From Croceicoccus sp. Ery15 (GTDB lineage: Bacteria; Pseudomonadota; Alphaproteobacteria; Sphingomonadales; Sphingomonadaceae): 64,000 bases of DNA. The stretch lies in the NCBI RefSeq assembly GCF_020985305.1, contig NZ_CP087588.1, positions 806,001 through 870,000 of the forward strand, read 5' to 3'. The position numbers and the translations under genes are program-made. The notes beneath the pieces are model-generated. The model saw only the letters and a program-made list of their open reading frames with translations, did no database searches and had not been told where the DNA came from. Below are positions 4,841 to 35,741 of the stretch, one piece after another (position 1 is the stretch's first letter; every line of letters starts with the position of its first letter).

Positions 4841-4879
4841 CTGGCCCAACGACTGATATTTGAACGAGGACCCATTCCC

Positions 4880-6477: not shown

Positions 6478-6494
6478 TCCGGAGCCCGTAACGC

Positions 6495-14854: not shown

Positions 14855-16012
14855 TTATGATTGTTTGCGGTTCAGAACGGCGAGCTGCAATCCGGCCTGC
14901 CGCGCCCGGCGATGCGGGCCGCCCGTTACGCCCCAGCCATCGGCGGGCGCGGCGAGGGCGCTTTCATCGACTTCTATGCCAAGACCCGGTGCTTCGCCCA
15001 GCATGATGCCGCCATTTTCGATCCGCTGGTCGACGTTAAGGCCGGTGGGCCAGCCGAAGTCCTGCACCTCGATCCCGATCATATTCGGCAGCGCCGCCGC
15101 CGCATGGGCGATCGGGTTGGCATCGAAACCGACAGGCGACACGGGCAGATTGCGCGACAATGCCGCCATGGCAACGCGCATGAAATGGGTAATGCCCCAC
15201 ACGCTGCCCGCCTGCACCACGTCCAGCGCGCCTGCCGCGAACAGCGGGGCATATTGGTCAAGACCGGTCAGGTTCTCGCCCGAGGCGACCGCCGCGCGGC
15301 CCGACGCGGAAACGCGCGCCAGCCCTTCGGCATCCCAGCGGCGCACCGGCTCCTCGATCCACGTCAGGTCGAGCTTTTCCTCGATCTCGTGCAGATGGCG
15401 GATCGCCTGTTTGGCGTTCCACGATTCGTTGACGTCCAGCATCATGGCGGGGCGCGGGCTGTTGGCCGCCATGATTTCGCGCGCCGTCAGCAGGCGTTCG
15501 ATATCGCGTCCCAGATCGCTGCCGCCCTTGATCTTGGCAGAGGAAAATCCGCGGTCGGCCCATGACTGGTAGTGGCTGGAGAATTCGCTGTCCGACAGGC
15601 CATAGCACAGGCCCGAGGCATAGCCGGGCACAAAGCTGTCGGCCGCGCCAAGAGTGCGCCACAGCGGCTCGCCGGCCATCTTCGCCTTCAGGTCCCACAA
15701 GGCCATATCGACCGCTGCAATGGCGCCGAATGTCGCGCCTGCGTGTCCGCTTTTGAAAACCTGGGACAGCATCGCGTCGTAAATGGCTGTCACGCTGCGC
15801 GGGTCCTTGCCCTCGACCGCAGGAAACACGCGCGCGATATCGGTATGCTGGCCAAGACCCACGCCGGTCAGCCCGCTGTCGGTTTCCAGCAGCAGAATCG
15901 GCACTTCGGTCACGCCGCTTTGGACGATGCCGTTTACATCGCCGACCGGACGGCCCCAATCATGGGTCGTTACCAGCGAGCGATATCCCGTGACTTTCAT
16001 GCCGTTTCGCAT
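14855..16012 (-). CDS. Enolase-superfamily protein lacking the usual His-Asp dyad
   Basis: A 385-residue mandelate-racemase/muconate-lactonizing-like protein (start ATG 16012; ATG 16000 is also possible). The cap domain (residues 1-120) is followed by the barrel with a Lys-x-Lys motif AKIKGG (Lys160, Lys162), metal ligands in LDVNESW (Asp193), IEEPV (Glu220/221) and ASGENL (Glu246). In the canonical rhamnonate dehydratase of this window the next strands read QPDVGWCGG and VPHG. Here they read QAGSVWGI and SPVG, so the catalytic Asp and His appear replaced by Gly269 and Val294. The chemistry may therefore differ from ordinary acid-sugar dehydration. It is transcribed divergently from the GntR gene, with an operator between, and is followed by the MFS gene. 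Confidence 0.8.
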   Translation of the reverse strand: MRNGMKVTGYRSLVTTHDWGRPVGDVNGIVQSGVTEVPILLLETDSGLTGVGLGQHTDIARVFPAVEGKDPRSVTAIYDAMLSQVFKSGHAGATFGAIAAVDMALWDLKAKMAGEPLWRTLGAADSFVPGYASGLCYGLSDSEFSSHYQSWADRGFSSAKIKGGSDLGRDIERLLTAREIMAANSPRPAMMLDVNESWNAKQAIRHLHEIEEKLDLTWIEEPVRRWDAEGLARVSASGRAAVASGENLTGLDQYAPLFAAGALDVVQAGSVWGITHFMRVAMAALSRNLPVSPVGFDANPIAHAAAALPNMIGIEVQDFGWPTGLNVDQRIENGGIMLGEAPGLGIEVDESALAAPADGWGVTGGPHRRARQAGLQLAVLNRKQS

Positions 16013-16148: not shown

Positions 16149-16901
16149 ATGAATAAGGAAACCGCCGCACCACCTCCTCCCGCAACGCCCCCGCGCGCAA
16201 GGCGCAGGCCGCGTTTGTCCGCGGCGGTGGTCGAAGATCTCGTGAATATGATCGTCGCCGGTTCCTATCCGGTGGGCACCGCGCTGCCGCCCGAAAACAT
16301 GCTGTGCGAAATGTATGGCGTCAGCCGGACGGTCGTGCGCGAGGCGACGACCGCCATGATCGAGAAGGGGCTGGTCGTTACCCAGCAGGGACGCGGCACC
16401 ATCGTGCGGGAGGATACGGCGTGGAACATGCTCGATCCGGTCATCCTGTCTGCGCTGTTCAAGGGTGAGGACGGGCTGCGCTATCTCGACAATCTGTCCA
16501 AGGTGCGCGTGCTGCTCGAATCGGAAATGGCGGCCGAGGCAGCGGAAGAAGGGACCGAGGAGCAACGCGCCGAACTGGCGGAGCAGATCGACAGGCTGGA
16601 AGGTCTGGTCGAAACGCCCGCGGCCTACGGGCACGAGGATTTGCGCTTTCACGATATCATCATGCGCATGTCAGGCAACCGGCTGAGCAAGGCGATCATC
16701 GATGGCATCCAGTCCGAAGCTTTGCGTACCCACGCCTATTCGGGCAAGCCCAGCATTGACCATGTAAAGGCGACGCAGGCCTCCCACCGCAAGGTTTATG
16801 ATGCGATCATGGCGCGCGACGCCGATGCGGCGGGCGATGCCATGCGCGAACATATTTCCGGTTCGTGGGACCGCCGCCGCGCACGGCCCAAGGGGTATTA
16901 G
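16149..16901 (+). CDS. GntR-family regulator, FadR/FCD subfamily
   Basis: A 250-residue transcription factor. After a Pro/Arg-rich tail, residues 25-95 form the winged helix, with the GntR pattern LPPENMLCEMYGVSRTVVREATTAM and the wing QQGRGTIV. The C-terminal FCD domain holds the metal-site pattern EDLRFHDIIMRMSGN, then SHRKVYDAI and MREHI, which supply Asp and three His; such domains bind carboxylic acids or sugar acids. The start at ATG 16149 is preceded by GAGGGGG; an upstream frame start at 16083 has no ribosome site. It lies in the middle of the sugar-acid locus, and six similar palindromes flank the surrounding genes. It is therefore the likely local repressor, lifted by a pathway intermediate. 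Its stop overlaps the convergent mutarotase stop by 4 bp. Confidence 0.9.
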   Translation: MNKETAAPPPPATPPRARRRPRLSAAVVEDLVNMIVAGSYPVGTALPPENMLCEMYGVSRTVVREATTAMIEKGLVVTQQGRGTIVREDTAWNMLDPVILSALFKGEDGLRYLDNLSKVRVLLESEMAAEAAEEGTEEQRAELAEQIDRLEGLVETPAAYGHEDLRFHDIIMRMSGNRLSKAIIDGIQSEALRTHAYSGKPSIDHVKATQASHRKVYDAIMARDADAAGDAMREHISGSWDRRRARPKGY

Positions 16902-17254
16902 AGCTGTTCCGACAGGGCGTAAATCCGCTCCATTTCCACCCATGTCTGGCCGGGATGTGATGGCAGCGGCTTTTGCATCGATGCCATCAGCCGGTCCCAT
17001 GCGGCCACATCGGGGTTGGCACCGTCCCGTTCGCGCTTCTCTTCGACGGAAGGTGCGCGTGCCATGTCCTGTTCCATGATCATGAACAGCCGGTCGCCGG
17101 TCAGCCAGATTTGCAGTTCGGTCACCCCGTCGGCGCGAATCGCGGCGGATACAGTGGCGGGCGGGCCGCCCGGTTCGTGCCAGCGGCGATAGGCGGCGAT
17201 CACATCGGCGTCATCGTTCAGGTCCACGGCGAAACAGCGGCGTACGACAGTCAT
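16898..17254 (-). CDS. RhaM/DUF718-type sugar mutarotase (L-rhamnose or L-fucose)
   Basis: A 118-residue small alpha/beta-barrel protein of the L-rhamnose mutarotase (DUF718) family, which interconverts the alpha and beta anomers of 6-deoxy-hexoses before an anomer-specific enzyme acts. Recognisable parts are the first strand RRCFAVDLN, the helix YRRWHEP with its His, and the RLFMIME strand followed by the WVEMERIY end. The sequence leans to the version found in L-fucose clusters as much as to E. coli RhaM, so the sugar is left open. The gene runs against gntR (4-bp tail overlap) and shares its upstream region with the DUF4432 operon, with an operator at 17320 between the two starts. Confidence 0.8.
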   Translation of the reverse strand: MTVVRRCFAVDLNDDADVIAAYRRWHEPGGPPATVSAAIRADGVTELQIWLTGDRLFMIMEQDMARAPSVEEKRERDGANPDVAAWDRLMASMQKPLPSHPGQTWVEMERIYALSEQL

Positions 17255-17357: not shown

Positions 17358-18542
17358 GTGCCACAGCTTTATGGCGAGGCCATCACCCGCCCCGACCTGG
17401 CATCAAGGTCGGGGGCGCTTTCGCAATTTGCAGGGGTGCGCCTGTCCACGCTTGGCGACGGGGTAGAGCGGGGCAACCGCCAGCTGGAATTCCGCACCGG
17501 CAGCGGGCTGCGCTTTACCGTGCTGGTCGACCGCGCCATGGATATTGCCGAATGCGACCATAACGGCCGGGCCGTGGGCTGGCATTCGCCATCGGGCTTC
17601 CGCAACCCTGCCTTGCACGAATATGAGGGTGAGGGCGGTCTGGGCTGGTTCCGGTCGATGTCGGGCCTGCTGATTACCTGCGGGCTGGACCATGTGCTGT
17701 TCATGGATGACGATCCGGCAGGGCATTACCACTATGGCCCACGCGAAAAGGTGTCGTCATCGCTCCACGGACGCATCGGCACCATCCCTGCGCGCCTCAC
17801 GGGCTATGGCGAGGAATGGCGCGGCGATGAATGCGTGCTCTGGGCCGAAGGAATCGTCCAGCAATCGACGGTGTTCGGAGAGGATCTCCACCTGATCCGC
17901 CGGATCGAGGCCGATGTGGGCGGGAACGAGATTCGCCTGCACGACCGCGTGGTCAATCACGGTTTTTACCGCACTCCGCACATGTATTGCTATCACATCA
18001 ATGTCAGCCATCCGGTGGTGGCCGAAGGGTCGCGCTATGTTGCGCCTGTGCGCGATGTGATCTGGGCAGCGCATGCGGATAACTATCGGGCGCAGGAAAC
18101 CGGATATCGACACCTCCCCGCACCGATTACGAACTTCCACGAACAGGTCTGGCAGCACGAGATGGCACCCGACGACAAGGGCCGCGTCAATGTTGCCATC
18201 GTGAACGAGGAGATGGGCTTCGGTTTCGAGGTCGAGACGCTGAAATCGCAGTTTCCTGCCATGTACGAATGGCAGAACCTGCACGCGGGCCATTATGCGG
18301 TGGGGATCGAACCTTCGACCAATCACGTGCTGGGCAAGGATTTCGCGCGCGAACGCGGCGAGCTGATCTGGCTGGAGCATGGCGAGGAGCGCCGCTACGA
18401 CAGCATCTTCCGCATCCTGCCCGATGGCGATGCGGTCGGCGATGCCGTCCGGCGGATCGAGGCGACCTGCCGCCAGCCGGAGGAGGATTATCCCGCGCCC
18501 TCGGGCCATTACCCGCCGATTCCGGCAGGGGGTGCGGCATGA
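17358..18542 (+). CDS. DUF4432 family aldose-1-epimerase-like protein
   Basis: A 394-residue predicted cytoplasmic protein (GTG start after AGGAGAGG). The fold is that of galactose-mutarotase-like beta-sandwich proteins: an early LEFRTGSGLRFTVLVDRAMDI, a His-rich centre LITCGLDHVLF and YHYGP, then LHDRVVNHGF, MYCYHINVSHP and GIEPSTNHVLG. DUF4432 proteins are found next to sugar-acid genes, and their reactions are mostly undetermined; an epimerase or mutarotase role is inferred from the fold. It is the first gene of a seven-gene operon and overlaps the SDR that follows by ATGA. Confidence 0.8.
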   Translation: MPQLYGEAITRPDLASRSGALSQFAGVRLSTLGDGVERGNRQLEFRTGSGLRFTVLVDRAMDIAECDHNGRAVGWHSPSGFRNPALHEYEGEGGLGWFRSMSGLLITCGLDHVLFMDDDPAGHYHYGPREKVSSSLHGRIGTIPARLTGYGEEWRGDECVLWAEGIVQQSTVFGEDLHLIRRIEADVGGNEIRLHDRVVNHGFYRTPHMYCYHINVSHPVVAEGSRYVAPVRDVIWAAHADNYRAQETGYRHLPAPITNFHEQVWQHEMAPDDKGRVNVAIVNEEMGFGFEVETLKSQFPAMYEWQNLHAGHYAVGIEPSTNHVLGKDFARERGELIWLEHGEERRYDSIFRILPDGDAVGDAVRRIEATCRQPEEDYPAPSGHYPPIPAGGAA

Positions 18543-19285
18543 AGGATCGTGTCGTCCTCTACACCGGCGCTGCAGGCGGGCTGGGTTTCGAAACCAGCCT
18601 GCTGATGATCGATCGCGGCGCGACGGTCGTGGCCATCGACTACAATCCCGACAAGCTGGCCGCGCTGACCGAAGCGGCGAAGGATCGCGGGCCCGGCAGG
18701 CTCATCACCTCGGGCGCCGACATGGGCGATCTGCCCGCCTATCGCACTGTGCTGGAGGATCTGGCATCGCAGACGGGCGGCTTCGACGTGGTCATCAACA
18801 ATGCCGGCATCTATCCGGCCAAGCCCTTCGAAGAGTTCACCATCGAGGAATATCAGGCGGTCCAGCGCGTCAATGTCGATGCCCATGTGCTGACCGTGCA
18901 GGTCGTCTTGCCCTTCATGCGGCAGCGCGGCTTCGGGCGCATCATCAATATCTCCAGCATCACTATGTCGGGCGCGTGGGACAATCTGTACCCCTATGTG
19001 TCGTCCAAGATGGCGCTGGTGGGTCTGACGCGGGCATGGGCGCGCGAATTCGGCCCGATGGGCGTGACCGTCAATGCCATCGCGCCGGGCGCATTCCCGA
19101 CCGATGCCGAGAAAATCCACCCCGATCCCGAAGGCTATGAACGCATGGTGCTGCACGCACAGGCGGTCAAGCGGCGCGGGCACGCGGGGGACATCGCCAA
19201 TGCCATCGCCTTTTTCGTCAGCGAGGATGCCGGTTTCATCACCGGCCAGACGCTGCACGTGAACGGCGGATGGACCATGAACTGA
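18539..19285 (+). CDS. Short-chain dehydrogenase/reductase of the CoA-module operon
   Basis: A 248-residue SDR with TGAAGGLG at 9-16, Asp34 after strand 2 (VAIDYN, indicating NAD), NNAG at 87-90, Ser140 and Tyr153-x3-Lys157 (YVSSK), and the DGG-like ending HVNGGW. It is a complete, apparently active NAD-dependent alcohol dehydrogenase. It differs from both other SDRs assigned to the L-rhamnose route. It is coupled to DUF4432 by overlap and lies 19 bp before the CoA-transferase gene, so it probably oxidises a sugar or sugar acid on the way to the CoA-dependent steps. The substrate is unknown. Confidence 0.85.
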   Translation: MKDRVVLYTGAAGGLGFETSLLMIDRGATVVAIDYNPDKLAALTEAAKDRGPGRLITSGADMGDLPAYRTVLEDLASQTGGFDVVINNAGIYPAKPFEEFTIEEYQAVQRVNVDAHVLTVQVVLPFMRQRGFGRIINISSITMSGAWDNLYPYVSSKMALVGLTRAWAREFGPMGVTVNAIAPGAFPTDAEKIHPDPEGYERMVLHAQAVKRRGHAGDIANAIAFFVSEDAGFITGQTLHVNGGWTMN

Positions 19286-19304
19286 TCGTGCAGAAAGCAA
19301 GACA

Positions 19305-20495
19305 ATGAAGATCCTCGAAGGAATTCGCGTTCTCGATTGCTCCATCGCCATGGCAGGGCCATTCGCGGCCCAGCGCATGGGCGACATGGGCGCCGATGTC
19401 GTCAAGGTAGAGCCGACCAGCGGCGAATGGCAGCGCCATGCCTCGGCAGGCGGGGCGACGGGGAACAAGATCAATGTCTCGTTCCTGTCGCTCAACCGCA
19501 ACAAGCGCTCGCTGGCGGTCGATCTGAAAGCGCCCGAGGGTAAGGCGCTGCTGATCGACATGGTGAAGAATGCCGATGTGTTCCTGCAAAACTATCGTCC
19601 CGGTGTCGCCGAGCGCCTCGGCGTCGATTACGCGACTTTGTCGGCCATCAATCCGCGCCTGATCTATGTGTCGATGTCAGGTTATGGTGAGGACGGCCCC
19701 TATCGCGACTATCCAGGGCAGGATTTGCTGCTGCAGGGCATGTCGGGCGCGATGATGTCGACGGGCGCTGCGGGCACGCCGCCCACGGCGGCGGGGCAAT
19801 ATCTGGTCGATGCGATCACCGCCTATACCGCTTTCGAAGGAGCGCTGGCGGCGCTGTTCCACCGCGAACGCACGGGCGAGGGGCAGCTGGTCCAGATCAA
19901 CATGCTGGACGCTATCGCCACGATCCAGATGCAGGAATTGTCGGTCTATACGGTCGGTAACAAGCCGCAGGCCCGCTCGGCCGAACCACATGCCCATTCC
20001 TATATTCGCGCGCCCTATGGCGTGTTCGCGACCGCTGACGGCTATATCACCGTTGCCATGGCCTCGCTGGCAAGGCTGGGCGAATTGTTCGAGGACGATT
20101 TCTTTGCGGGCCTCGACGACGAGCGCGACAGCTGGAGCAAGCGTGACGAGATATTTGCGCGGGTGAAAGCCCATCTGCTGGACCGCAAGAGCGAGGACTG
20201 GCTGAAGGAGATGCGCGCCCGCGACATCTGGGCGGGGCCGGTCTATGGTTACGAAGAGCTGATCAACGATCCGCAGATCAGGCATAACGGCACTTTCATC
20301 GAATATGACCACCCGACCGAGGGGCGGATCAAGGTGCCCGGCTTCCCCATCCGCTTCAGCCGCACGCCCTGCGAAGTCGAACGCGGCGCGCCGCTGGTGG
20401 GCGAACATAGCCGCGAGGTGATGCGCGAGGCGGGGCTGGACGATGGCGCGATCGAGGCGCTGATCGAATCCGGCGTGGTCCGGCAGCACGCATGA
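19305..20495 (+). CDS. Family III CoA-transferase (CaiB/BaiF)
   Basis: A 396-residue class III CoA-transferase, full length. Features are the N-terminal LDCSIAMAGPFAAQRMGDMGADVVKVE, NRNKRSLAVDLK, SGYGEDGPY and GEGQLVQINMLDA, in which Asp202 corresponds to the acyl-enzyme aspartate of this family. The C-terminus has APLVGEHSREV. Such enzymes move CoA from an acyl-CoA donor to a carboxylic acid. In a pectin locus the acid could be a ketodeoxy or branched sugar acid; this is inference. The gene overlaps the following solute-binding-fold gene by 4 bp, implying tightly matched production. Confidence 0.9.
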   Translation: MKILEGIRVLDCSIAMAGPFAAQRMGDMGADVVKVEPTSGEWQRHASAGGATGNKINVSFLSLNRNKRSLAVDLKAPEGKALLIDMVKNADVFLQNYRPGVAERLGVDYATLSAINPRLIYVSMSGYGEDGPYRDYPGQDLLLQGMSGAMMSTGAAGTPPTAAGQYLVDAITAYTAFEGALAALFHRERTGEGQLVQINMLDAIATIQMQELSVYTVGNKPQARSAEPHAHSYIRAPYGVFATADGYITVAMASLARLGELFEDDFFAGLDDERDSWSKRDEIFARVKAHLLDRKSEDWLKEMRARDIWAGPVYGYEELINDPQIRHNGTFIEYDHPTEGRIKVPGFPIRFSRTPCEVERGAPLVGEHSREVMREAGLDDGAIEALIESGVVRQHA

Positions 20496-21628
20496 CCGTG
20501 ATGGCCGAGCTTGAACTGCCTGCCTACACTGGCCTGACATGGGATCATCCGCGCGGCTATAACGCGCTGGCCCGTGCCGCCGTGGATGCCAAGGGGCTGA
20601 CCCTGCAATGGGACCGCCACTCGCTGGAGGGGTTCGAATCCGCCCCTATCGGTGAATTATGCGACCGTTACGATCTGGTGGTGCTGGACCATCCGCATGT
20701 GGGAGAGGCGATTGCCGCCGATTGCCTGATCCCGGTCGAGGAATTGTTCGGCGCGGACGAGATCGCCGCCTGGCAGGATGCGATCGCTGGGCCGTCGCTG
20801 GCAAGCTATCATTACGCGGGCAAGCACTGGGCCCTGCCGCTCGATGCCGCGACGCAGGTGATGGCGTGGCGTGCCGACCGGATCGTGGAGGCGCCGACCA
20901 CATGGGCCGAACTGCCGAAGCTGGCCGAAGGCCGCGCGGTGGCGCTGTCGCTGGCCGGGCCGCATGCGATCCTGAGCTTCCAGTCGATCTGCGGCGCTTT
21001 GGGAGCAGAGCACGCCAATCCGCGCGACCATTTCATGGACCGCGCCACCGCGCGTGAGGCATTCGCCATCATGCAGGCGCTGACCGGCGATGCGACGCGG
21101 GCGGCAGTGGCGATGAACCCCATCGCCATGCTGGATGCCATGGCGGCGGGCGAGGGGCCCGATCTTGTCCCGCTGATCTATGGCTATGTGAACTATGCCA
21201 CGCGCGGCGTGCGTTTCGGCGATGCGCCTCGCGGGCCGACCGGCAGGATCGGGTCTATACTGGGCGGCACCGGTATCGGCGTATCGCGCCGCTGCAAGGT
21301 CACCCCTGCCTTGCTCGATCATATCCGCCTGCTGATGTCGGAAAGCGTGCAGCGCGGCTTTATCCCGTTTCAGGACGGCCAGCCTGCCTTCCGTTCCGCA
21401 TGGCACGATCCGGCCGTCAACGGGGCCACCGGGAAGTTCTTTGCCGATACGCTGCAGAGCATCGAGCAGGCCCAATTGCGCCCCCGCCATAATGGCGCGA
21501 TCGCGTTTCAGACAGAGGCATCGACCCTGCTGCGCGCCGCGCTGATCGACGGCGGCGACGCCGGAAGCACACTCGACGCGATCGAGCGGAGCTATCGTGA
21601 CCACCATCCGGCCGGAGCCGAGACATGA
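20492..21628 (+). CDS. Solute-binding-protein fold, no export signal
   Basis: A 378-residue protein resembling family 1 carbohydrate ABC solute-binding proteins: YDLVVLDHPHVGEA, a hinge region YHYAGKHWALPLDAATQVMAWRAD, then WAELPKLAEGR and a C-terminal helical lobe. Its N-terminus, MTVMAELELPAYTGLTWD, has no signal peptide or lipobox, and no ABC permease or ATPase gene is in the window. It overlaps the CoA-transferase upstream and the crotonase downstream by 4 bp each, so it is made together with two cytoplasmic CoA enzymes. A cytoplasmic binding or assembly role, or an enzyme on a binding-protein scaffold, is more likely than transport. Function unknown. Confidence 0.75.
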   Translation: MTVMAELELPAYTGLTWDHPRGYNALARAAVDAKGLTLQWDRHSLEGFESAPIGELCDRYDLVVLDHPHVGEAIAADCLIPVEELFGADEIAAWQDAIAGPSLASYHYAGKHWALPLDAATQVMAWRADRIVEAPTTWAELPKLAEGRAVALSLAGPHAILSFQSICGALGAEHANPRDHFMDRATAREAFAIMQALTGDATRAAVAMNPIAMLDAMAAGEGPDLVPLIYGYVNYATRGVRFGDAPRGPTGRIGSILGGTGIGVSRRCKVTPALLDHIRLLMSESVQRGFIPFQDGQPAFRSAWHDPAVNGATGKFFADTLQSIEQAQLRPRHNGAIAFQTEASTLLRAALIDGGDAGSTLDAIERSYRDHHPAGAET

Positions 21629-22395
21629 CCGACGAACTGATCTTTACCGTGGCGGACCATGTCGCCACGATCACTTTCAACCGCCCCGCCAAGCTGAATG
21701 CGCTGACGCCCGCCATGGCGGCGGCGCTGATTGCGGCGGTCAGCGAATGCAACACCAGCGATGCGGTGCGCTGCGTGGTGGTGACGGGTGCGGGGGAAAA
21801 GGCCTTCTCGGCGGGGTCGGATATCTCGACCCTCGATGCCTATGCGACGCCGTGGGATTTCCGTAATCGCGACGATTATTGCGATGCCTTGCGCGCCTGC
21901 CGCAAGCCGGTGATCGCGGCGGTGAACGGCTATGCACTGGGTGGCGGGCTGGAAACCGCCATGGCCGCCGACATCCGCATCGCCAGCGCCAATGCCCGCT
22001 TCGCCGCGCCCGAAATCAAGCTGGGCTGGATCGGCGGCGGGGGCATGGCAGCCGGGCTGTCATACTGCGCCGGTTCGTCGAACGCCGCGATGATGGTGCT
22101 GACCGGCGACATGATCGATGCGGCGCAGGCCCGCGACTGGGGCATCGTCAGCGAGGTGCACGAGGCAGAGGCGCTGATGCCGCGCGCCATGGAGCTGGCG
22201 GCAACCATTGCCAGCAGGGCGCCCATCGCGGCGGAAACCGCCAAGCTCAACCTGCGCGCGGCCCATGTCATGCCATGGGACAAGGCCATCGAATACGAAC
22301 GCGACCTGCAGGCGATCTGCTTCGCCACCGAGGACGCCGCCGAGGGGCGCGCCGCCTTTGCCGAAAGGCGTGACCCGCAGTTCCGCAGGCGCTAG
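21625..22395 (+). CDS. Enoyl-CoA hydratase/isomerase (crotonase) family protein
   Basis: A 256-residue crotonase-fold enzyme with ITFNRPAKLNALT, the first oxyanion-hole strand KAFSAGSDIS and the second in GYALGGGLETAMAADI. Both acidic positions used by true hydratases appear kept (Glu in GGGLET and in APEIKLGW). The usual GAGGTQRL turn is replaced by GGGGMAAGL, so the substrate pocket is likely special. It would act on the CoA thioester made by the neighbouring transferase by hydration, dehydration or C-C cleavage. Fourth CoA-module gene, 4-bp overlap upstream and 9 bp to the dehydrogenase. Confidence 0.87.
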   Translation: MTDELIFTVADHVATITFNRPAKLNALTPAMAAALIAAVSECNTSDAVRCVVVTGAGEKAFSAGSDISTLDAYATPWDFRNRDDYCDALRACRKPVIAAVNGYALGGGLETAMAADIRIASANARFAAPEIKLGWIGGGGMAAGLSYCAGSSNAAMMVLTGDMIDAAQARDWGIVSEVHEAEALMPRAMELAATIASRAPIAAETAKLNLRAAHVMPWDKAIEYERDLQAICFATEDAAEGRAAFAERRDPQFRRR

Positions 22396-22404
22396 GAACA
22401 CCCC

Positions 22405-23361
22405 ATGTCCAAACCCAAAATTCTCCTCTCGCGCCGCTGGCCCGAGGCGGTCGAGGCGCGGCTTGCACAAAGCTATGACGTCACCATCAACGAGGCGGAC
22501 GTGCCGCTGGATGTGGACGGGCTGGCAGCGGCCATGCGCGAATATGATGCCGTGTGCCCGACGGTCACCGACAGACTGCCCGCCTCGGTCTTCGCGCAGG
22601 ATGGCATACGCGCCCGCATCATCGGTAATTACGGGGCGGGGGTGGAACATATCGATCTTGAAGCCGCGCAATCTGCGGGGTTGATCGTCACCAACACGCC
22701 CGATGTGCTGACCGATGCGACCGCCGATATCGCCATGACCCTGCTGCTGATGGCCACGCGCCGTGCGGGCGAGGGAGAGCGGGAACTGCGCGCCGGGGAA
22801 TGGACCGGCTGGCGGCCTACCCATCTGCTGGGCCGGTCGCTGTCGGGCAAGGTGCTGGGGCTGGTCGGATTTGGCCGCATCGCCCGCGCCATGGCCGAGC
22901 GCGCGCAGGCGTTCGGTATGCGGATCGCCTATCACAGCCGCTCGGCCAAGGACGACATACCTGCCGATGCCTATCACGCCGAGCTTGCCGATCTGCTGGC
23001 GGTGTCGGATGTCGTGTCGCTGCATGCGCCGGGCGGGGCGGAGACGCATCACATGATCGATGCCGCCATGCTGCAACGGATGAAGCCGGGCGCGGTCCTG
23101 ATCAACACCGGACGCGGAACCCTGATCGACGAGGCCGCGCTGGCAGCCGCTTTGCGCGACGGGGTGATCGCATCGGCAGGGCTGGACGTGTTCGAGCAGG
23201 AGCCGACGGTGCATCCTGAATTGCTCGCGCTGTCTAATGTGGTGCTGTTGCCCCATTTGGGTTCCGCCACGCTGGAAACGCGTGAGGCGATGGGGATGAA
23301 GGTTGCCGACAATCTCGACCATTTCTTCGCCGGAGAGCCATTGATTGACCGCGTCGTCTGA
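22405..23361 (+). CDS. D-2-hydroxyacid dehydrogenase, hydroxypyruvate/glyoxylate reductase-like
   Basis: A 318-residue NAD(P)-linked dehydrogenase. It has the substrate-domain motif GNYGAGVEHID, the Rossmann motif GLVGFGRIA (152-160), HSRS after strand 2 (no acidic residue, so NADPH is plausible), and the catalytic triad Arg237 (NTGRG), Glu266 (DVFEQEP) and His284 (LPHLGSAT). Family members reduce glyoxylate, hydroxypyruvate or other 2-keto acids to D-2-hydroxyacids. Because the next gene, overlapping by 17 bp, encodes D-glycerate 3-kinase, hydroxypyruvate to D-glycerate is the most likely reaction. Confidence 0.85.
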   Translation: MSKPKILLSRRWPEAVEARLAQSYDVTINEADVPLDVDGLAAAMREYDAVCPTVTDRLPASVFAQDGIRARIIGNYGAGVEHIDLEAAQSAGLIVTNTPDVLTDATADIAMTLLLMATRRAGEGERELRAGEWTGWRPTHLLGRSLSGKVLGLVGFGRIARAMAERAQAFGMRIAYHSRSAKDDIPADAYHAELADLLAVSDVVSLHAPGGAETHHMIDAAMLQRMKPGAVLINTGRGTLIDEAALAAALRDGVIASAGLDVFEQEPTVHPELLALSNVVLLPHLGSATLETREAMGMKVADNLDHFFAGEPLIDRVV

Positions 23362-24181
23362 CCTTGTCGCGGCTGCGGTCCGCGAATGGCTGGTTAATGC
23401 CCCGCACCCGCTGGTGCTGGGCATTTGCGGATCGCAAGGCAGCGGCAAATCGACGTTGGCGCGCGCATTGGAGCAGACGCTGGGTGAGGATGGGCTGAGC
23501 ATCGCCTCGCTCTCGCTCGACGATCTCTATCTCGGCACGCAGGCCCGGCGGAAGCTGGCGGCGGAGGTCCACCCGCTCTTCGCCACGCGCGGCGTGCCGG
23601 GCACGCATGATTTGGAACTCGGGCTATCGGTGATTCAGGCGGTGCGCGACGGGAAGGCCGTGGCATTGCCGCGATTCGACAAGGCGAGCGATGAACCTTT
23701 GCCGCGTGACGCATGGCCGATGGCGCCCCAAGGTCTGGACGTGCTGATCTTCGAAGGCTGGTGCGTGGGTGCGCGCCCCGAAGCGGTTGAGGCGCTGTCC
23801 GGGCCTGTCAACGCGCTCGAACGCGAAGAGGATGGCGACGGGCGCTGGCGTCGCGCGGTCAATGACTTCCTCGCAGGTCCCTATCAGGCGCTTTTCGAGC
23901 AGATCGACCGGCTGGTGTTTCTGGCTGCGCCCGGCTTCGAGGTCGTCCACGGCTGGCGCCTGCAGCAGGAACGGGACTTGCGCGAAAGCCTGAAGGCCCA
24001 AGGGCGCGATCCGGCGCTGGCGATGACGGACGAGCAGATTTCCCGCTTTATCAGCCATTATGAGCGGATAACCCGGCACATTCTGCATTCCATGCCCTCG
24101 CAAGCGGCGCTGACGCTGCGTCTGGGAAGGGATCGCGAAATAATCGGAATCGCGGCTTCGGCGGGGTTGTCTTCCAGTTAA
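23345..24181 (+). CDS. D-glycerate 3-kinase (plant-type GLYK)
   Basis: A 278-residue P-loop kinase with Walker A GICGSQGSGKST (26-37), LDDLYLG, the PGTHDLELG segment characteristic of plant/fungal-type glycerate kinases, LPRFDKASDEPLP, and the second strand LIFEGWCVGARP. It phosphorylates D-glycerate to 3-phosphoglycerate, feeding glycolysis. The start appears to be TTG at 23345, inside the end of the dehydrogenase gene; no nearer ATG or GTG gives the N-terminal helix. As the last gene of the operon it marks the exit of the proposed pathway. The next gene starts behind its own operator 3 bp downstream of the stop. Confidence 0.88.
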   Translation: MTASSDLVAAAVREWLVNAPHPLVLGICGSQGSGKSTLARALEQTLGEDGLSIASLSLDDLYLGTQARRKLAAEVHPLFATRGVPGTHDLELGLSVIQAVRDGKAVALPRFDKASDEPLPRDAWPMAPQGLDVLIFEGWCVGARPEAVEALSGPVNALEREEDGDGRWRRAVNDFLAGPYQALFEQIDRLVFLAAPGFEVVHGWRLQQERDLRESLKAQGRDPALAMTDEQISRFISHYERITRHILHSMPSQAALTLRLGRDREIIGIAASAGLSSS

Positions 24182-24221: not shown

Positions 24222-25856
24222 TTGCCTGAAGGTTTTGCCGAATTCAGCCGCCGTACCGCGCTCTACGGGCTGGGGGCCGCCTTTGCCGCCAGCGCGGTGC
24301 CGGTGCGCGCCACGGGAAGCCTGACCGGCTTTCACGATATTCGCGATTATGGCGCGCTCGGTGATGGCAAATCTATCGATTCCCATGCCATCAATCGCGC
24401 CATCGAAGCCGCCAGTGCCAAGGGCGGCGGCACCATCGTCGTCCCTCCGGGTGAATATCTGTGCTTCTCGATCCGGTTGAAGAGCCACATCACGCTGGTG
24501 CTGTCGCCCGGATCGATGATCGTCGCCGCCGACCCCGACAAGCACGAAGGGCAATATGATCTGCCCGAAGGCGTGTTCGAGGAGCAGCTGGTCGATTACG
24601 GCCTCGCCCATTTCCACAACAGCCTGATCTATGGCGACGGGGTTACCGATATCGCGATTGTCGGCAGTGGTCTGATCTATGGTCCCGGCCTCGACCGCGA
24701 AGGCCCGCCGCCGCGCTGGCACGGGATCGAGGGGTGGAAGTCCCCATCCGAACTGGGAATGACGGCGGACGAGGCACGCCGCGCCATCCCGCTGGAGATG
24801 AAATATGAAGGTCGCGGCAACAAGGCCATCGGTCTGACCGGATGCCGCAATGTGGTTTTGCAGGATTTCTCGATCCTGCAGGGCGGCCATTTCGCCTGTT
24901 ACGTACTGGGCTGCACCAATGTGCGGATCGAGGGGATTATCGTCGACACCGACCGCGACGGTATCGACCTTGATTGTTGCCGCGATGCCAAGGTCGTCAA
25001 TTGCACCGTCAACGCGCCCAAGGACGATGCCATCGTGTTGAAGAGCAGCTATGCCCTGCAGGAAGCACGTTTTTGCGAGGATATCCAGATACTTGGCTGC
25101 AAGACCAGCGGCTATCTGCTGGGCACGCTGCTGGACGGAACCTATCAGAAATCGCCCTATATGGCGCCCGACGATGTCGGTGTGCTGGGGCGGATCAAGC
25201 TGGGCACCGATTCCGTCGCGGGTTTCCGCAGGGTGCTGATCGCCGATTGCTTGTGCGAGAATTCGCGCGGCTTACAGATGGGCGCGATTGACGGTGGCGT
25301 GCTGGAAGATGTGACGGTGCGCGACGTGACCTTGCGCAATCCGGTGAACCATCCCCTGTTCGTCCGCCTCTCGGCTCGTAACCGCGCGCCACGCGGGGCA
25401 GGGGTGGCCAGCGTCCGGCGTGTCCGCTTTTCCGATATCCAGGTTTCGGGTGCGCGCATGGAGTATCCGTGCGGCGTCGTCGGGATCGAGGACGGCATCA
25501 TCGAGGATGTGAGCTTCAGCGGCCTGCATGTCAGCGCCGCGGGCGGAGGCACGGCCGAGGATGCGGCGCGCGTGGTGCCCGAACGGCGCACTTCCAGCCT
25601 TGAGCCGAGCTTTATGAAAACGCTGCCTGCACATGGGCTTTACGCACGCCACGTGCGTAATCTGGGCATGTCGGACGTGCGCTTTGATGTGGAGGCGGCC
25701 GATGCACGACCGGCGATTGCGCTGGAGAACGTCAATGGCGCGGTGATCGACGGGCTGACATCGACCAAGGCCAAACAGAACGCAGTCCGCGCGGCGCAGG
25801 ATTGTCGCAATATCGCGATTGGCCAGATTGAAACCTTTTCGGGAGAGAATGCATGA
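24222..25856 (+). CDS. GH28 glycosidase, rhamnogalacturonan/polygalacturonase type (copy 1)
   Basis: A 544-residue right-handed beta-helix enzyme of GH28. The start is TTG 24222 with GGAG seven bases upstream; an earlier ATG meets a stop. A Tat-like leader, FSRRTALYGLGAAFAASAVP, indicates export of a folded protein. FHDIRDYGALGDGKSID is the family N-terminus. Catalytic-region motifs are DTDRDGIDLDCC (near 242-252), KDDAIVLKS (Asp268-Asp269) and GRIKLG (Arg324-Lys326). The GHG of true polygalacturonases is not evident (TSGYLLG), as in many rhamnogalacturonan-active or exo-acting members. It is paralogous to the protein at 29948-31576. Probably cleaves galacturonate linkages of pectin; the exact bond is unknown. 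Confidence 0.87.
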   Translation: MPEGFAEFSRRTALYGLGAAFAASAVPVRATGSLTGFHDIRDYGALGDGKSIDSHAINRAIEAASAKGGGTIVVPPGEYLCFSIRLKSHITLVLSPGSMIVAADPDKHEGQYDLPEGVFEEQLVDYGLAHFHNSLIYGDGVTDIAIVGSGLIYGPGLDREGPPPRWHGIEGWKSPSELGMTADEARRAIPLEMKYEGRGNKAIGLTGCRNVVLQDFSILQGGHFACYVLGCTNVRIEGIIVDTDRDGIDLDCCRDAKVVNCTVNAPKDDAIVLKSSYALQEARFCEDIQILGCKTSGYLLGTLLDGTYQKSPYMAPDDVGVLGRIKLGTDSVAGFRRVLIADCLCENSRGLQMGAIDGGVLEDVTVRDVTLRNPVNHPLFVRLSARNRAPRGAGVASVRRVRFSDIQVSGARMEYPCGVVGIEDGIIEDVSFSGLHVSAAGGGTAEDAARVVPERRTSSLEPSFMKTLPAHGLYARHVRNLGMSDVRFDVEAADARPAIALENVNGAVIDGLTSTKAKQNAVRAAQDCRNIAIGQIETFSGENA

Positions 25857-26959
25857 TCTGTAAGTTTGGCACCGCGCTGGCGGCACTACTCGCGACGACT
25901 CCGCTCGCCGCGCAGAACTACGACCTCGACCAGCGCGACGATGATTTCAGCGAACGTCTGACCGTGATCGAGGAGCCGGCCGAACCGGTGATCGGGCCGG
26001 AAGATGTGCGGCGCGCCGATAACCGTTCTGGCTTTGAAACGGGCATGACGCTCAAGATCGATGGCACCTATCATCTGTTCATTTCGGAAATGTTCGAACG
26101 CCCGCACCTCGATATGCGGATCGCCCACTGGACCAGCCCGGACGCGGTCAGGTGGACCCGTCAGGGCACCGTCGTCGACAGCGTGCCGGGCCGTTCGGCA
26201 AAGAACCCCAAATCTGAGGTATGGTTGCAGGGCGTTATCTTCGACGACGAGGCCGATCGCTGGAACCTGTTCTACATCGCCTATCGCGGGGGCAACAGCG
26301 AACAGGGCGAAGGGCTCAACCTCGACTATGAAGGCACGGCGCGGCGGGCCGTTTCGCAAACCCCGGGCAAAGCCGGTATCGGCGGCCCGTATGAAGATGT
26401 CGGGGTCGCCATGGCACCGGGCGGTCCGGATGCGGCGGTATGGGAGGGGCAGCAGGGGCTGGACAGCTTCTTCCCTTATAAGGTCGGCGATCAATGGGTC
26501 GCGCTGCATGGCAGCCACAACCATTTTCCCGCGTCGCCCTGGCAAGTGGGCGTGGCAACCGGCTCCAGCCTGACAAGCAGCGAATGGACGCGCGTGCCGA
26601 GCGAGCAGCCGTCCCCCATGGAAGGGCTGTTCATCGAAAATCCGATCGTCGAAAAGCTGCCCAATGGCCATTACATTGCGCTTTACGATGCCAATCACTT
26701 CGCACCCGTTCAGCCCGACATGCCGGTGCGGCCGAACAATTCGGTCGGCTATAGTGTTTCAGAAGACGGGATACGCTGGCATCAGGGCCGTTCGCTTGTC
26801 GTTCAGAGCGACGACAACAACTGGGCATCGGACCTGCGCACTCCATTGGGTCTGGTTGCGGAGGGCGACGGGATATACACCCTGCTCTATACGGCCCGCA
26901 TGAAGGACCAGCCCTTTTGGGCCATCGGCCGCGTCAAGGTGAAGCTGACGACCGACTGA
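25853..26959 (+). CDS. Secreted GH43-like five-bladed propeller protein
   Basis: A 368-residue exported protein (signal peptide ending near PLAAQ-NY), coupled by ATGA to the GH28 gene. The sequence repeats blade-like units: GMTLKIDGTYHLFISEM, MRIAHWTSPDAVRWTRQG, GVIFDDEADRWNLFYIAYR, EGLFIENPIVEKLPNGHYIALYD, VGYSVSEDGIRWHQG. These are typical of GH43/GH32/GH117-like propellers that act as arabinosidases, xylosidases or galactosidases. The acidic catalytic residues cannot be fixed without alignment. Given the partner, a side-chain-trimming role on pectin is likely. It is followed by a strong terminator. Confidence 0.7.
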   Translation: MICKFGTALAALLATTPLAAQNYDLDQRDDDFSERLTVIEEPAEPVIGPEDVRRADNRSGFETGMTLKIDGTYHLFISEMFERPHLDMRIAHWTSPDAVRWTRQGTVVDSVPGRSAKNPKSEVWLQGVIFDDEADRWNLFYIAYRGGNSEQGEGLNLDYEGTARRAVSQTPGKAGIGGPYEDVGVAMAPGGPDAAVWEGQQGLDSFFPYKVGDQWVALHGSHNHFPASPWQVGVATGSSLTSSEWTRVPSEQPSPMEGLFIENPIVEKLPNGHYIALYDANHFAPVQPDMPVRPNNSVGYSVSEDGIRWHQGRSLVVQSDDNNWASDLRTPLGLVAEGDGIYTLLYTARMKDQPFWAIGRVKVKLTTD

Positions 26960-27091: not shown

Positions 27092-29101
27092 TCAGGGACG
27101 AACGCCCGCAGCCTCGATCACCTTGCGCGCTTCTTCGGGCCAGTCGCTGCCCGGAACCAGGAAATTGCCGCGCGGGTCGTTGCCATATTGGGGCAGCCAG
27201 CGCCCGCCGGTCTTCATCGAATTATGCCAGTTTCCGACCGCGCGATTGTCGGTCGAGATGCCCTGATCGTACATCTTGCCGGCGGTATTGATGTTCAGCC
27301 ACGTTCCGCTCGACGTTTCAACGACATTGCCGGTAACGGTGAAGTGCTTGCTGCCTTCGTCCAGATAGATCGCGATTTTGTGATCGATGTCGAAGATATG
27401 GTTGTTCCGTATCACCGAATTGGGATTGGCGGAAAGGTTATAGATAGCCCCGCCGTCCATATACCATTGTTTCACCCCGTGAATCCGGTTCCCCTCGACC
27501 AGAGTGTTGCGCAGCGTCGTGGGCGTGGTGAATTTGGGATTGTGGACATATCCCTGCTGGTTCTGGTCGTAATTGGGATTGCCGCCTTCGTCGTTGTAAC
27601 CCCAACCCCAACCGGTTGCGATCCCGTCATAGGGGGCATCGCTGATATCGTTGTGCACGATGCTGGCCCCGTCGATATAGGTCGTCAGGATCGCGGCATT
27701 ATCCTTGTAATCCTGACTGACGGTGACGACCACATTATCCGCGATGGTCAGGTCGCGGTTGACAAGGTTCGGGTCCGACGGGTGATGCGCGTCGGTGCGT
27801 ACACCGCCCGCCATGATCGCGCTGCCCGACAATACGGTAAAGCGGTTGCGCGAGACGGTGATATTGCCGGTCGCCAGACCCACGCCGGTCAGATGGGCCT
27901 GCGGCTCGTTTCCGATGCCCAGCGCGACCTGCCCCAGCTGGCTGAAGACATTGCCCTCAAAAGTGATGTCGCGCGCGGCGGACACCTGCACGGCAGCGGG
28001 GATCTGGTGCCATTTCAGGCGCATGGATTCGAATTCGACGCAGCCCCAGCCGCATTTTTCCCATGCGTCTTCAGGGTGCAACGGCGATTCGTCGCTCAGA
28101 TAGGCACCGCTCTGCTGGTTGGCATAGCCCGTGTTTCGCGAAGGGCCGAGCCATGATGTGTGCGAAAATTGCAGCCCGCGAAAATTGAGTTTTTCGACCG
28201 GCTTGTCGGGCGTTCCGCTGATCGAAACCAGCGCTTCCAGCGTGGGCACGACGACGTCGAGATCGGCGATATCCTCGTCCAGACCCGTGCGCAGATAGAG
28301 CTTGCCTGCTTCGGGATCGATCACCCACTGGTGCCAGTTCGAATGCCACTGGCCGACCTTGCCAATGAATTCGGGCGCCCCGCGCAGGAAAAAGCGCGAT
28401 TCTTCTGGAAACAGCGGTTTGCTCGCCGTGTCATAGCCCCAGGTGTTATTGTCCCACGCCGGCTGCGACATGGTGAATTCCACGCCGCCATCCGATTTCG
28501 CGATCGTTTCCACGGGCGAATAACGGTCGGTGAAAATGCCCGTCGCCTCGATCTCCATCCGGTCGGGCCGGGCGATATCGGCCAGCCATGCGTAATCGGG
28601 ATTGGCGATGGTAAAACCGGTCCCGCTGAATTTCAGGTCGTGGAGCGCGATTTCGACGAAGGGCGATTCTGCGACCGTGCCGTTCACCCAGATCTGCCGC
28701 GTATCCAGCCCCTTGGGCGTGTCCGCGACATAGAGGTGGCGTTCCTCGTCATACGATTTGAAACCGGTGATGTGGATGCCCGATGTGATGACCGGCCGTG
28801 CATCGGGGGCGGCGCGCCATTCGACCGTATGGCCGTTCTGGCCGCCATCGGCCTGTCGGAACACCAGTGGCTTGGTCAGGCGATAGGTGCCATCGGCCAG
28901 CAGGACGGTGACATCCCCCTTCTTGTTGCTGGCCCGCACCAGTTCCTGCGCCTTTTCCAGCGTCCGGACCGGTTTCGCAGAGGTACCCGCATTGCGGTCG
29001 CTGCCCGATGGCGAGACATGGACGGTCACCTGCGCGAATGCCGATGTGGCGCACAGCAGACCTGCCGCGAATGTCGCCGTGCGAACGGCTTTGCCGATCA
29101 T
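27092..29101 (-). CDS. Secreted parallel beta-helix carbohydrate-active protein
   Basis: A 669-residue exported protein (signal peptide ending near SAFA-QV). It opens with VTVHVSPSGSDRNAGTSAKPVRTLEKA, the hallmark start of large beta-helix glycosidases, then a beta-sandwich-like insert and many helix coils such as ITFEGNVFSQLG, ITVSRNRF, LTIADNVVVTVS and VIRNNHIFDIDHKIAIYLDEGS. Architecture and length recall GH141, GH120 and related families; GH141 includes alpha-L-fucosidase and 2-O-methyl-xylosidase-type activities on rhamnogalacturonan II and xylanase. Family assignment needs a search. It is 36 bp downstream of an SDR gene and shares its operator-controlled promoter at 29934. Confidence 0.72.
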   Translation of the reverse strand: MIGKAVRTATFAAGLLCATSAFAQVTVHVSPSGSDRNAGTSAKPVRTLEKAQELVRASNKKGDVTVLLADGTYRLTKPLVFRQADGGQNGHTVEWRAAPDARPVITSGIHITGFKSYDEERHLYVADTPKGLDTRQIWVNGTVAESPFVEIALHDLKFSGTGFTIANPDYAWLADIARPDRMEIEATGIFTDRYSPVETIAKSDGGVEFTMSQPAWDNNTWGYDTASKPLFPEESRFFLRGAPEFIGKVGQWHSNWHQWVIDPEAGKLYLRTGLDEDIADLDVVVPTLEALVSISGTPDKPVEKLNFRGLQFSHTSWLGPSRNTGYANQQSGAYLSDESPLHPEDAWEKCGWGCVEFESMRLKWHQIPAAVQVSAARDITFEGNVFSQLGQVALGIGNEPQAHLTGVGLATGNITVSRNRFTVLSGSAIMAGGVRTDAHHPSDPNLVNRDLTIADNVVVTVSQDYKDNAAILTTYIDGASIVHNDISDAPYDGIATGWGWGYNDEGGNPNYDQNQQGYVHNPKFTTPTTLRNTLVEGNRIHGVKQWYMDGGAIYNLSANPNSVIRNNHIFDIDHKIAIYLDEGSKHFTVTGNVVETSSGTWLNINTAGKMYDQGISTDNRAVGNWHNSMKTGGRWLPQYGNDPRGNFLVPGSDWPEEARKVIEAAGVRP

Positions 29102-34211: not shown

Positions 34212-35741
34212 CTAATTTACAGTCAGTTTGCCGTCGATCAATCGGGGCAAACCGTCACCGCTTGCATCGTCCCGCAATTCGGGCGGTAGAAGCGACTGTG
34301 CGAGGTTCTGGTAGCTGACCGGACGCAGGAACCGGTCGATGGCAAGGCTGCCGACCGATGTGGTGCGCGGATCGCTGGTGGACGGGAAGGGTCCGCCGTG
34401 CACCATGGCGGGGCAAACCTCGACACCGGTCGGCCAGCCATTGGCAAGGATACGCCCGACGCGGCGTTCCAGCACGGGCATCAGCGTGGCGGCCATGGCC
34501 TCGTCCTCGCCGTCCATGTGCAGCGTGGCGGTCAGCTGGCCTTCCAGCGATTCCAGAACGGCCTTCAACTCGCCTTCGTCGGCGCAGCGCACGATGACCG
34601 AGGCCGAGCCGAACACTTCATGCCCGATCGCGTTCTCGGCAATAAACTGCTGTGCCGTGGTCTGGAACAGCGCGGTGCCGCCGGTGGTGACGCTGCCTTC
34701 CTCGCCCTTGGCCAGCGTATCGACGCCGGGCAGGCCCGACAGCATTTCGATGCCCTTGGCATAGGCTGCGGCAATGCCCTTGGTCAGCATGGTCTGCGGC
34801 TTGGCTTCGGCCACGCCGCCGCTGGCCGCGGTGACGAAATCGTCGATGCCGTCACCGTCGACGGCCAGCACAAGGCCGGGATTGGTGCAGAACTGGCCTG
34901 CGCCCATCGTCAGCGAACCGACGAATGCCGTGCCCAGTGCCGCACCGCGCGCCTTGAGCGCATGGGGCAGCAGGATGACGGGATTGATGCTCGACATTTC
35001 GGCATAGACGGGGATCGGCACGGCGCGCGCCTGTGCAAGCTTGCTCAGCGCAAGGCCGCCTGCGCGCGAACCGGTAAAGCCCACCGCCATGATGCGCGGG
35101 TCCTGTACCAATGCGGCACCCAGCTCGTTCGAGGGACCCGACAGATGCTGGAACACGCCAGCAGGCAGGCCGCTGTCGGCCACGGCCTTGGCGATGGCCT
35201 GTGCCACCAGCCCGCCGGTGACGGGATGGGCGGGGTGGCCCTTGACCACTACCGGGCAGCCTGCGGCCAGCGCCGATGCGGTATCGCCGCCTCCGGTCGA
35301 GAAGGCGAGCGGGAAGTTCGACGCGCCGAATACGGCGACAGGGCCGACAGGGATCATGCGCAGGCGCAGATCGGGGCGCGGCAGCGGTTGACGGTCGGGC
35401 ATGGCGGGGTCGATGCGGATCTGTTCCCACTGGCCCATGCGGACAACATCGGCGAACATTTTAAGCTGGCCGCAAGTCCGGCCGCGTTCACCCTCTGCAC
35501 GGCCGCGGGGCAGGCCGCTCTCGCGCATATAGGCTTCGATCAGCGGTTCGCCGATGGCCATGATCTCGTCCGCGATCCGCGTCAGAAATGCCGCGCGTTC
35601 CAGGTTCCCGGTCGCGCGATAGATGTCGAAGGCCGCATCGGCTGCGGCGCAGGCTGCCGCGACATCTTCGGGTCCGTGAACGGTAAGCGGATCGCCGTGG
35701 GCTTCGCCGGTCTCGGCGGTCACGGAGCGGAATTCGGTCAT
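34212..35741 (-). CDS. 2,5-dioxovalerate (alpha-ketoglutarate semialdehyde) dehydrogenase
   Basis: A 509-residue aldehyde dehydrogenase of the KGSADH group (start ATG 35741 behind AAGGGAGA; the frame opens at 35900 but that would run through the operator). Motifs are VAVFGASNFPLAFST (Asn142), VKGHPAHP (Lys167), GFTGSRAGG, catalytic Glu248 in YAEMSSINP and Cys285 in GQFCTNPG, all typical of enzymes completing L-arabinose, D-xylose, galacturonate or galactarate oxidation to alpha-ketoglutarate. The dehydratases that produce its substrate are not obvious in the window; the non-canonical enolase or genes elsewhere may supply it. Operator 6 lies 23 bp upstream. Confidence 0.87.
   Translation of the reverse strand: MTEFRSVTAETGEAHGDPLTVHGPEDVAAACAAADAAFDIYRATGNLERAAFLTRIADEIMAIGEPLIEAYMRESGLPRGRAEGERGRTCGQLKMFADVVRMGQWEQIRIDPAMPDRQPLPRPDLRLRMIPVGPVAVFGASNFPLAFSTGGGDTASALAAGCPVVVKGHPAHPVTGGLVAQAIAKAVADSGLPAGVFQHLSGPSNELGAALVQDPRIMAVGFTGSRAGGLALSKLAQARAVPIPVYAEMSSINPVILLPHALKARGAALGTAFVGSLTMGAGQFCTNPGLVLAVDGDGIDDFVTAASGGVAEAKPQTMLTKGIAAAYAKGIEMLSGLPGVDTLAKGEEGSVTTGGTALFQTTAQQFIAENAIGHEVFGSASVIVRCADEGELKAVLESLEGQLTATLHMDGEDEAMAATLMPVLERRVGRILANGWPTGVEVCPAMVHGGPFPSTSDPRTTSVGSLAIDRFLRPVSYQNLAQSLLPPELRDDASGDGLPRLIDGKLTVN

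Follow-up and report, generated by a model that had tools for sequence, protein, structure and literature searches.

A run of seven tightly packed genes in Croceicoccus sp. Ery15 carries a recurring and apparently undescribed gene set, whose core would act on a sugar acid in the form of its coenzyme A (CoA) thioester. The run occupies positions 17358-24181 on the plus strand of a 64,000-nucleotide stretch of DNA, here called the window (C1:806001-870000), in a genome made up of one contig of 3,633,189 bases. The core comprises a family III CoA-transferase (CoAT), a signal-less protein with a solute-binding-protein (SBP) fold, and a crotonase. These three almost certainly form one functional unit, and we consider it probable that the unit adds water to, or removes it from, a sugar-acid thioester. 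More tentatively, and with slightly less than even confidence, we propose that the reaction is the dehydration step of a non-phosphorylative oxidative aldose route, most likely for a pentose, that leads to 2-oxoglutarate.

The seven genes have the families and the order that a preliminary description of this DNA had given them, with spacings of -4, +19, -4, -4, +9 and -17 bases, so that four of the six junctions overlap. Recurrence was assessed by a scan of named genomes with the SBP, which returned 135 relatives, and the best 80 loci were fetched. Locus counts here and below use identity thresholds set in a script and flanks of at most 10 kb per side, some of them short, and they are not independent because several loci come from near-identical species.

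17358..18542, plus strand: DUF4432 aldose-1-epimerase-like protein (PF14486, 317 bits; 110 bits to 3ty1, 'hypothetical aldose 1-epimerase'); 56 of 80 loci
18539..19285, plus strand: classical short-chain dehydrogenase/reductase (SDR; PF13561/PF00106); 66 of 80 loci
19305..20495, plus strand: family III CoA-transferase (PF02515, CoA_transf_3, 361 bits); 80 of 80 loci
20492..21628, plus strand: signal-less protein with SBP fold (SBP_bac_8, 35.6 bits, cut-off 27); 80 of 80 loci
21625..22395, plus strand: crotonase (PF00378, ECH_1, 201 bits); 78 of 80 loci
22405..23361, plus strand: accessory D-2-hydroxyacid dehydrogenase of the glyoxylate/hydroxypyruvate reductase type (PF02826/PF00389; best NCBIfam match glyoxylate reductase, 301 bits, under the cut-off of 455); 35 of 80 loci
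23345..24181, plus strand: accessory P-loop kinase resembling D-glycerate 3-kinase (GLYK; 73 bits to the solved GLYK 7xpc and 66 bits to the solved structure 6ckg, with uridine kinases scoring lower); 36 of 80 loci

Recurrence of the core and its solute-binding protein

The CoAT and the signal-less SBP occur together in every one of the 80 loci and the complete triad in 78, which argues that the clustering is not due to chance. The genome-neighborhood search that the preliminary description had proposed as a check is thus clearly positive as regards a recurring core. Judging by record names (one locus, L049, was checked), the 80 loci span Alpha-, Beta- and Gammaproteobacteria. The set is also carried by plasmid records of Pararhizobium, Sinorhizobium, Streptomyces, Pseudosulfitobacter, Variovorax and Rhizobium, where the flanks often include Gfo/Idh proteins, sugar-isomerase-like genes and sugar transporters of the ATP-binding cassette (ABC) type. 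Less frequent partners among the 80 loci include homologues of a lactate dehydrogenase (18) and of a lactonase (11).

The set is patchily distributed. The closest SBP among the named records is that of Croceicoccus mobilis (76%), and two proteins outside these records are closer still. SBP relatives were rare in even samples, for which few candidates per genome were scored: the class gave 6 of 385 genomes (E up to 1e-30) and the order 7 of 296 (E up to 1e-50), each count including the Croceicoccus genome itself. The other matches have 36-42% identity, so these samples hold no close relative. The pattern is broken in Sinorhizobium medicae and S. meliloti, whose distant SBP relatives stand with a CoAT and no annotated sugar enzyme. 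The Gfo/Idh partner found in Sinorhizobium bears a distant likeness to 5uhw (97 bits).

The SBP has the fold of sugar-binding proteins and appears to stay in the cytosol. Among 74 relatives (76 were collected and two without the GLTWDHPRG motif were dropped), 65 have at most 15 residues before this motif, with a median of 7. A hydrophobic peak above 2.0 is present in only one of the 74, versus 24 of 34 true SBPs from the same loci, which were judged on their first 70 residues. Neither an export signal nor a permease and ATPase of its own was found for the protein as a component of an ABC transporter, and the sugar ABC systems in two loci (L082 and L087) carry an SBP of their own. It thus differs from the sugar-binding proteins of CUT1 ABC transporters, such as LpqY, SmoF and the trehalose/maltose binders, both in lacking a signal peptide and in being encoded by a gene that overlaps the preceding CoAT gene by 4 bases. 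A search for a ligand that could be transferred from solved SBPs of the neighboring ABC systems gave no close match.

Residues expected for catalysis are conserved in both enzymes of the core. The CoAT matches formyl-CoA transferase without a shift (query 2-207 on chain 3-207), so D169 falls at the nucleophile position of that family, and D169 is invariant in the window protein and 81 relatives (82 aligned). The preliminary description had instead named Asp202 as the key residue of the transferase, but this is a different aspartate. Its statement that both glutamates of the crotonase are intact agrees with our alignment, in which E110 and E130, presumably the two catalytic residues judging by motif, are invariant in the window protein and 74 relatives (75 aligned). 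A family III CoAT with a conserved aspartate and an adjoining hydratase with both acid/base residues are features of the CaiB/CaiD type.

A proposed CoA-dependent dehydration route

In the known catabolism of aldonic acids, metal or Fe-S enzymes remove water from the free acid. The scheme that we propose passes through a thioester instead, and its reactions, its sugar and the role of its SBP are predictions from gene content. The DUF4432 protein, as a mutarotase or isomerase, would present the right form of the sugar to the SDR. The latter would act as an aldose 1-dehydrogenase that yields the lactone or acid, with a lactonase joining in some loci. The SBP would bind the free sugar acid in the cytosol as a partner of the CoAT, and together they would generate the aldonyl-CoA. 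The crotonase might then remove water from this 2,3-dihydroxyacyl-CoA across C2-C3 to give a 2-keto-3-deoxyaldonyl-CoA, whose CoA the CoAT would hand to the next sugar acid. CoA would thereby cycle, in the manner of the carnitine enzymes CaiB and CaiD. Finally, an FAH-family dehydratase of the XylX type would remove a second water to form a semialdehyde, which an aldehyde dehydrogenase (ALDH) would convert into 2-oxoglutarate, acting as a 2-oxoglutarate-semialdehyde dehydrogenase. For this last step we propose the window copy at 34212-35741.

The most complete-looking loci end in FAH and ALDH, which points to 2-oxoglutarate and not to glycerate as the product. Five of six Azospirillum loci (L047, L060, L062, L072 and L074), which are not independent of one another, read SDR, CoAT, SBP, crotonase, FAH, ALDH and then a transporter, and none of these five runs has a match to MR_MLE (enolase-type) dehydratases; the sixth (L073) has no SDR match. 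The window ALDH shares 61% identity with the L047 enzyme encoded after FAH, and the NCBIfam matches of the window copy, to 2,5-dioxovalerate dehydrogenase and others, are all weak. No locus among the 80 has a match to the IlvD/EDD dehydratase, and in 26 of the 37 FAH loci MR_MLE matches are missing as well. Of the three PF00920 genes in the Croceicoccus genome, one reads by eye as IlvD and two as Edd; this genome has no AraA and no xylose isomerase above the cut-off.

The FAH copy of L007 scores 423 bits against the solved structure 9kkt (383 residues), probably Caulobacter XylX, as well as 60 bits against the 2-keto-3-deoxy-D-arabinonate dehydratase KdaD (2q18). The openly licensed literature searched yielded no paper that identifies 9kkt. 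A tree of 46 FAH sequences places two in-operon FAHs of Sphingopyxis in a supported clade (100/99) with 9kkt, the FAH of the Croceicoccus genome (6.5 kb left of the window) and one Novosphingobium FAH whose neighbors are a sugar porter, an SMP-30 lactonase and an SDR. Since the remaining in-operon FAHs fall outside this clade, the CoA set has probably recruited FAH more than once.

Crotonases usually give a (3S)-hydroxyacyl-CoA. The crotonase is missing from only two of the 80 loci (L040 and L075), and both have a MaoC-type gene in the same run. Another locus (L042) holds both hydratases, and in the Streptomyces locus L091 a CoAT (62%), an SBP, an FAH (53%) and an ALDH stand with MaoC and no crotonase match. 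Excerpts of PMC9007349 describe both kinds of enzyme as using acid-base chemistry on CoA thioesters, with (3S) and (3R) products, respectively. The replacement of crotonase by MaoC therefore argues, if not strictly, for the addition or removal of water and against cleavage of a carbon-carbon bond.

More distant clusters (L086, L088, L090, L111, L112 and L115) combine CoAT and SBP with MaoC, several of them beside fucose-type genes, and we regard them as a second branch of the system. These versions stand alongside L-rhamnose mutarotase, Gfo/Idh proteins and sometimes L-fuconate dehydratase or a fucosidase, and L112 lies inside a polysaccharide utilization locus of Bacteroidota. Our own Cahn-Ingold-Prelog reasoning assigns 3S to L-arabinonate and D-xylonate and 3R to L-fuconate, in keeping with the presence of MaoC in clusters beside fucose genes. 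It is conceivable, if doubtful, that all of these clusters represent a widely scattered class of sugar-acid dehydratases. In such a class, sugar acids would be loaded onto CoA by the CoAT and a captured, cytosolic ABC-type SBP, and the stereochemistry would be set by an exchangeable hydratase, with crotonase for 3S acids and MaoC for 3R acids; pentoses would be handled by crotonase/FAH clusters and L-fucose-like sugars by MaoC clusters, also in Bacteroidota.

Several observations weigh against the CoA-dependent dehydration route as proposed. The thioester itself is a prediction from gene content, and the reductase and GLYK have no role in the scheme. FAH is found in just 37 and ALDH in 7 of the 80 loci, within the flanks searched, and the FAH of the Croceicoccus genome ends an apiose-type operon and could serve another sugar. 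MR_MLE genes, which could carry out the dehydration where they occur, are present in 26 of 80 loci. PF00920 matches were counted in 26 CoAT-bearing genomes, which represent 26 of the 80 loci: four genomes have only two and 22 have three to six, including a few fragments, so the route does not simply replace IlvD/EDD enzymes. Excerpts of PMC9007349 propose that both kinds of hydratase can hydrolyze oxepin-CoA, so the swap between them is no proof of dehydration. In the fucose-type clusters L086 and L115, MaoC stands alongside a gene annotated as L-fuconate dehydratase, making it less plausible that CoA chemistry takes over from that enzyme. Lastly, a distant SBP relative (34%) in Microvirga (L114) has no CoAT annotated within 10 kb. 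The neighbors of this Microvirga gene are a lactonase, an SDR, an aldose epimerase, two mannonate dehydratases and RraA.

The familiar schemes closest to the proposed dehydration route include the Weimberg-type oxidative pentose pathway, which in Caulobacter comprises XylB, XylC, XylD, XylX and XylA. Both would use an aldose dehydrogenase, a lactonase (in some loci), an FAH-family 2-keto-3-deoxy-acid dehydratase and an ALDH to reach the same end product, whereas none of the 80 loci has an IlvD/EDD match and that position is taken by the CoAT, the cytosolic SBP and either crotonase or MaoC. The carnitine proteins CaiB (a family III CoAT) and CaiD (a crotonase) likewise represent two adjoining members of the same superfamilies, in which CoA passes from the dehydrated product to fresh substrate. 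They differ from the present set in that here sugar enzymes and sugar transporters surround the genes, the partner has an SBP fold and MaoC is interchangeable with the crotonase.

Our search, which covered openly licensed literature, found no paper describing this gene set or a CoA-dependent sugar-acid route of this kind. Of the published pathways that it did turn up, deoxyribonate catabolism comes closest as a CoA route for a sugar acid. In excerpts of PMC6365646, the Klebsiella michiganensis cluster for this pathway encodes a CoA-synthetase, a beta-hydroxyacyl-CoA dehydrogenase and a thiolase. It also holds a glycerate kinase and a CoA-transferase, for which glyceryl-CoA is the proposed substrate. 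A sugar acid is thus handled as a CoA thioester, with a CoA-transferase and a glycerate kinase in the cluster. It is nonetheless a different route, as it relies on activation by CoA-synthetase, a dehydrogenase and a thiolase, all of them missing from the core described here, and the excerpts name no SBP or hydratase. Excerpts of the 2022 gap-filling paper PMC9007349 make no mention of the route proposed here.

If the proposed reading is correct, dehydration through a CoA thioester would join the metal and Fe-S enzymes as a third chemistry for sugar acids, usable on acids that those enzymes cannot take. It would also provide a function for DUF4432 proteins and for a group of 'extracellular' SBPs that never leave the cell. 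Its genes are found in rhizobia, sphingomonads, Azospirillum and Streptomyces, and a Bacteroidota plasmid has a more remote form of them.

Pectin genes and alternative substrates

The preliminary description had placed the set inside a pectin locus and had a C3 fragment of the substrate leave as glycerate. The core does recur, but none of the four tested pectin-type families of carbohydrate-active enzymes (CAZymes) is present in the fetched flanks of 40 of the 80 loci, mostly from Rhizobiales and Azospirillum, and annotated plasmids of Rhizobiales, Pseudosulfitobacter and Variovorax have sugar ABC transporters in place of these enzymes. Pectin-type CAZymes accompany 36 of the 37 loci that have the reductase or GLYK versus 4 of the 43 that have neither, a comparison confounded by taxonomy. 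The reductase/GLYK pair thus tracks pectin use, or pectin-using taxa, and not the core, and the glycerate part of the earlier pathway loses most of its basis. With these two genes outside the core and with FAH and ALDH pointing to 2-oxoglutarate, we do not retain the exit as glycerate. What stands of the earlier CoA-dependent sugar-acid pathway is the recurring set itself, which implies a CoA thioester and its hydration or dehydration. As an exception, a Streptomyces plasmid (L084), which was outside the 80-locus test, has a beta-helix protein and an L-rhamnose mutarotase about 4-9 kb from the set.

A role for GLYK and the reductase would follow if the crotonase cleaved aldonyl-CoA or 3-keto-aldonyl-CoA to release glycolyl-CoA together with an aldehyde or acid, with the C3 piece going to glycerate for GLYK and the C2 piece to glycolate or glyoxylate. 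Both genes do stand beside the core in many loci (36 and 35 of 80) and in more than one gene order. Excerpts of PMC6365646 also propose deoxyribonate routes that proceed via glyceryl-CoA and need a glycerate kinase. We nevertheless find such cleavage unlikely, because loci free of the pair are as common as the others (43 versus 37) and FAH would be left without a role. Moreover, MaoC replaces the crotonase in two loci, and MaoC enzymes are not known to act as C-C lyases.

Somewhat less likely again is that the set handles a known pectin monomer, D-galacturonate, L-rhamnose or D-galactose, by an alternative route. A small L-rhamnose-mutarotase-like (rhaM-like) gene has homologues in 31 of the 80 loci, and GH28, GH78 and GH2 homologues occur in 26, 14 and 17, respectively. 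However, the FAH and ALDH partners better fit a C5 acid, and L-rhamnose and D-galacturonate appear to have genes of their own. Positions 350-7448 of the window hold a near-complete non-phosphorylative L-rhamnose route II, composed of lactate dehydrogenase (LldD), an Lra1-type dehydrogenase, rhamnonate dehydratase, a diketo-acid hydrolase, an SDR and a lactonase, with an apiosidase-like gene interleaved. The L-rhamnose dehydrogenase (471 bits, cut-off 400), the rhamnonate dehydratase (742 bits, cut-off 393) and LldD exceed their curated cut-offs, and the hydrolase falls just under its own (461 bits, cut-off 500). For galacturonate, UxaC lies at 3.42 Mb, with neighbors that we read by eye as UxaB and UxaA. 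The sole GH43 match of the genome (G000:C1:3425715-3426530) is about 6 kb from UxaC, where there may be a second pectin or hemicellulose locus.

Apiose also seems to have genes of its own. An apiose-type operon runs through the left flank (G000:C1:798410-806338) and positions 1-338 of the window, and encodes a sugar-isomerase-like TIM barrel, a DeoR-type regulator, a two-part transketolase, an FGGY kinase, an MFS-like transporter and the XylX-like FAH. Its kinase and two transketolase subunits have 41-43% identity to E. coli SE15 genes that excerpts of PMC13001218 name aplK, aptA and aptB and assign to a D-apiose pathway via apulose. These are separate genes of the same locus, and the D-apiose pathway is not known to have a CoA step. 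Because rhamnose, apiose and galacturonate have genes of their own, the CoA set would be free for another sugar.

The preliminary description had suggested a branched or unusual acid from rhamnogalacturonan II (RG-II), aceric or apionic acid, as the substrate of a dedicated route ending in glycerate. Apiosidase-like genes at 2247-3635 and 32652-34190, a rhamnogalacturonidase in the same run of genes and the position of GLYK at the end of the set are what speak for it. We now consider it improbable, given the 40 core loci whose flanks lack the tested pectin-type CAZymes, the apiose-type isomerase, kinase and transketolase genes, and the rhamnose-type and apiose-type genes that adjoin the set. 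It is equally improbable that the substrate of the triad is a non-sugar acid from the polymer or co-imported with it, such as an acyl or hydroxycinnamoyl substituent. Enzymes of the two families concerned, family III CoA-transferases and crotonases, mostly handle acids of this kind, but here the usual partners are DUF4432, SDR and Gfo/Idh proteins, lactonases and sugar ABC systems, the SBP has the fold of sugar-binding proteins, and no acyl-CoA dehydrogenase or thiolase was recognized among the annotated recurring neighbors.

Neighboring genes in the window

Four further genes of the window bear on the set.

24222..25856, plus strand: GH28 rhamnogalacturonidase (NF049898, 542 bits, cut-off 500), beginning 40 bases after the kinase gene in the same run
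34212..35741, minus strand: aldehyde dehydrogenase, on a separate transcript
16227..16901, plus strand: GntR/FCD protein (PF07729 and PF00392; start picked by codon score), candidate regulator of the region
14855..16000, minus strand: divergent enolase-superfamily dehydratase-like gene (PF13378, 141 bits), which might serve as an alternative dehydratase; same-class homologues are those counted in 26 of 80 loci

The rhaM-like gene of the window lies at 16898-17254 on the other strand. Two secreted-looking proteins are encoded after the rhamnogalacturonidase gene. The first (25853-26959) has no Pfam match and no homologue among the 80 loci. The second (27092-29101) has no Pfam match at 1e-6 and has homologues of the beta-helix/DUF1565 kind in 33 of the 80 loci, with up to 82% identity, and is thus a recurrent unnamed partner of pectin loci. 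To the right of the pectin genes, the window encodes an autotransporter (36222-39326) and a YadA-type trimeric adhesin-like protein (55533-57929).

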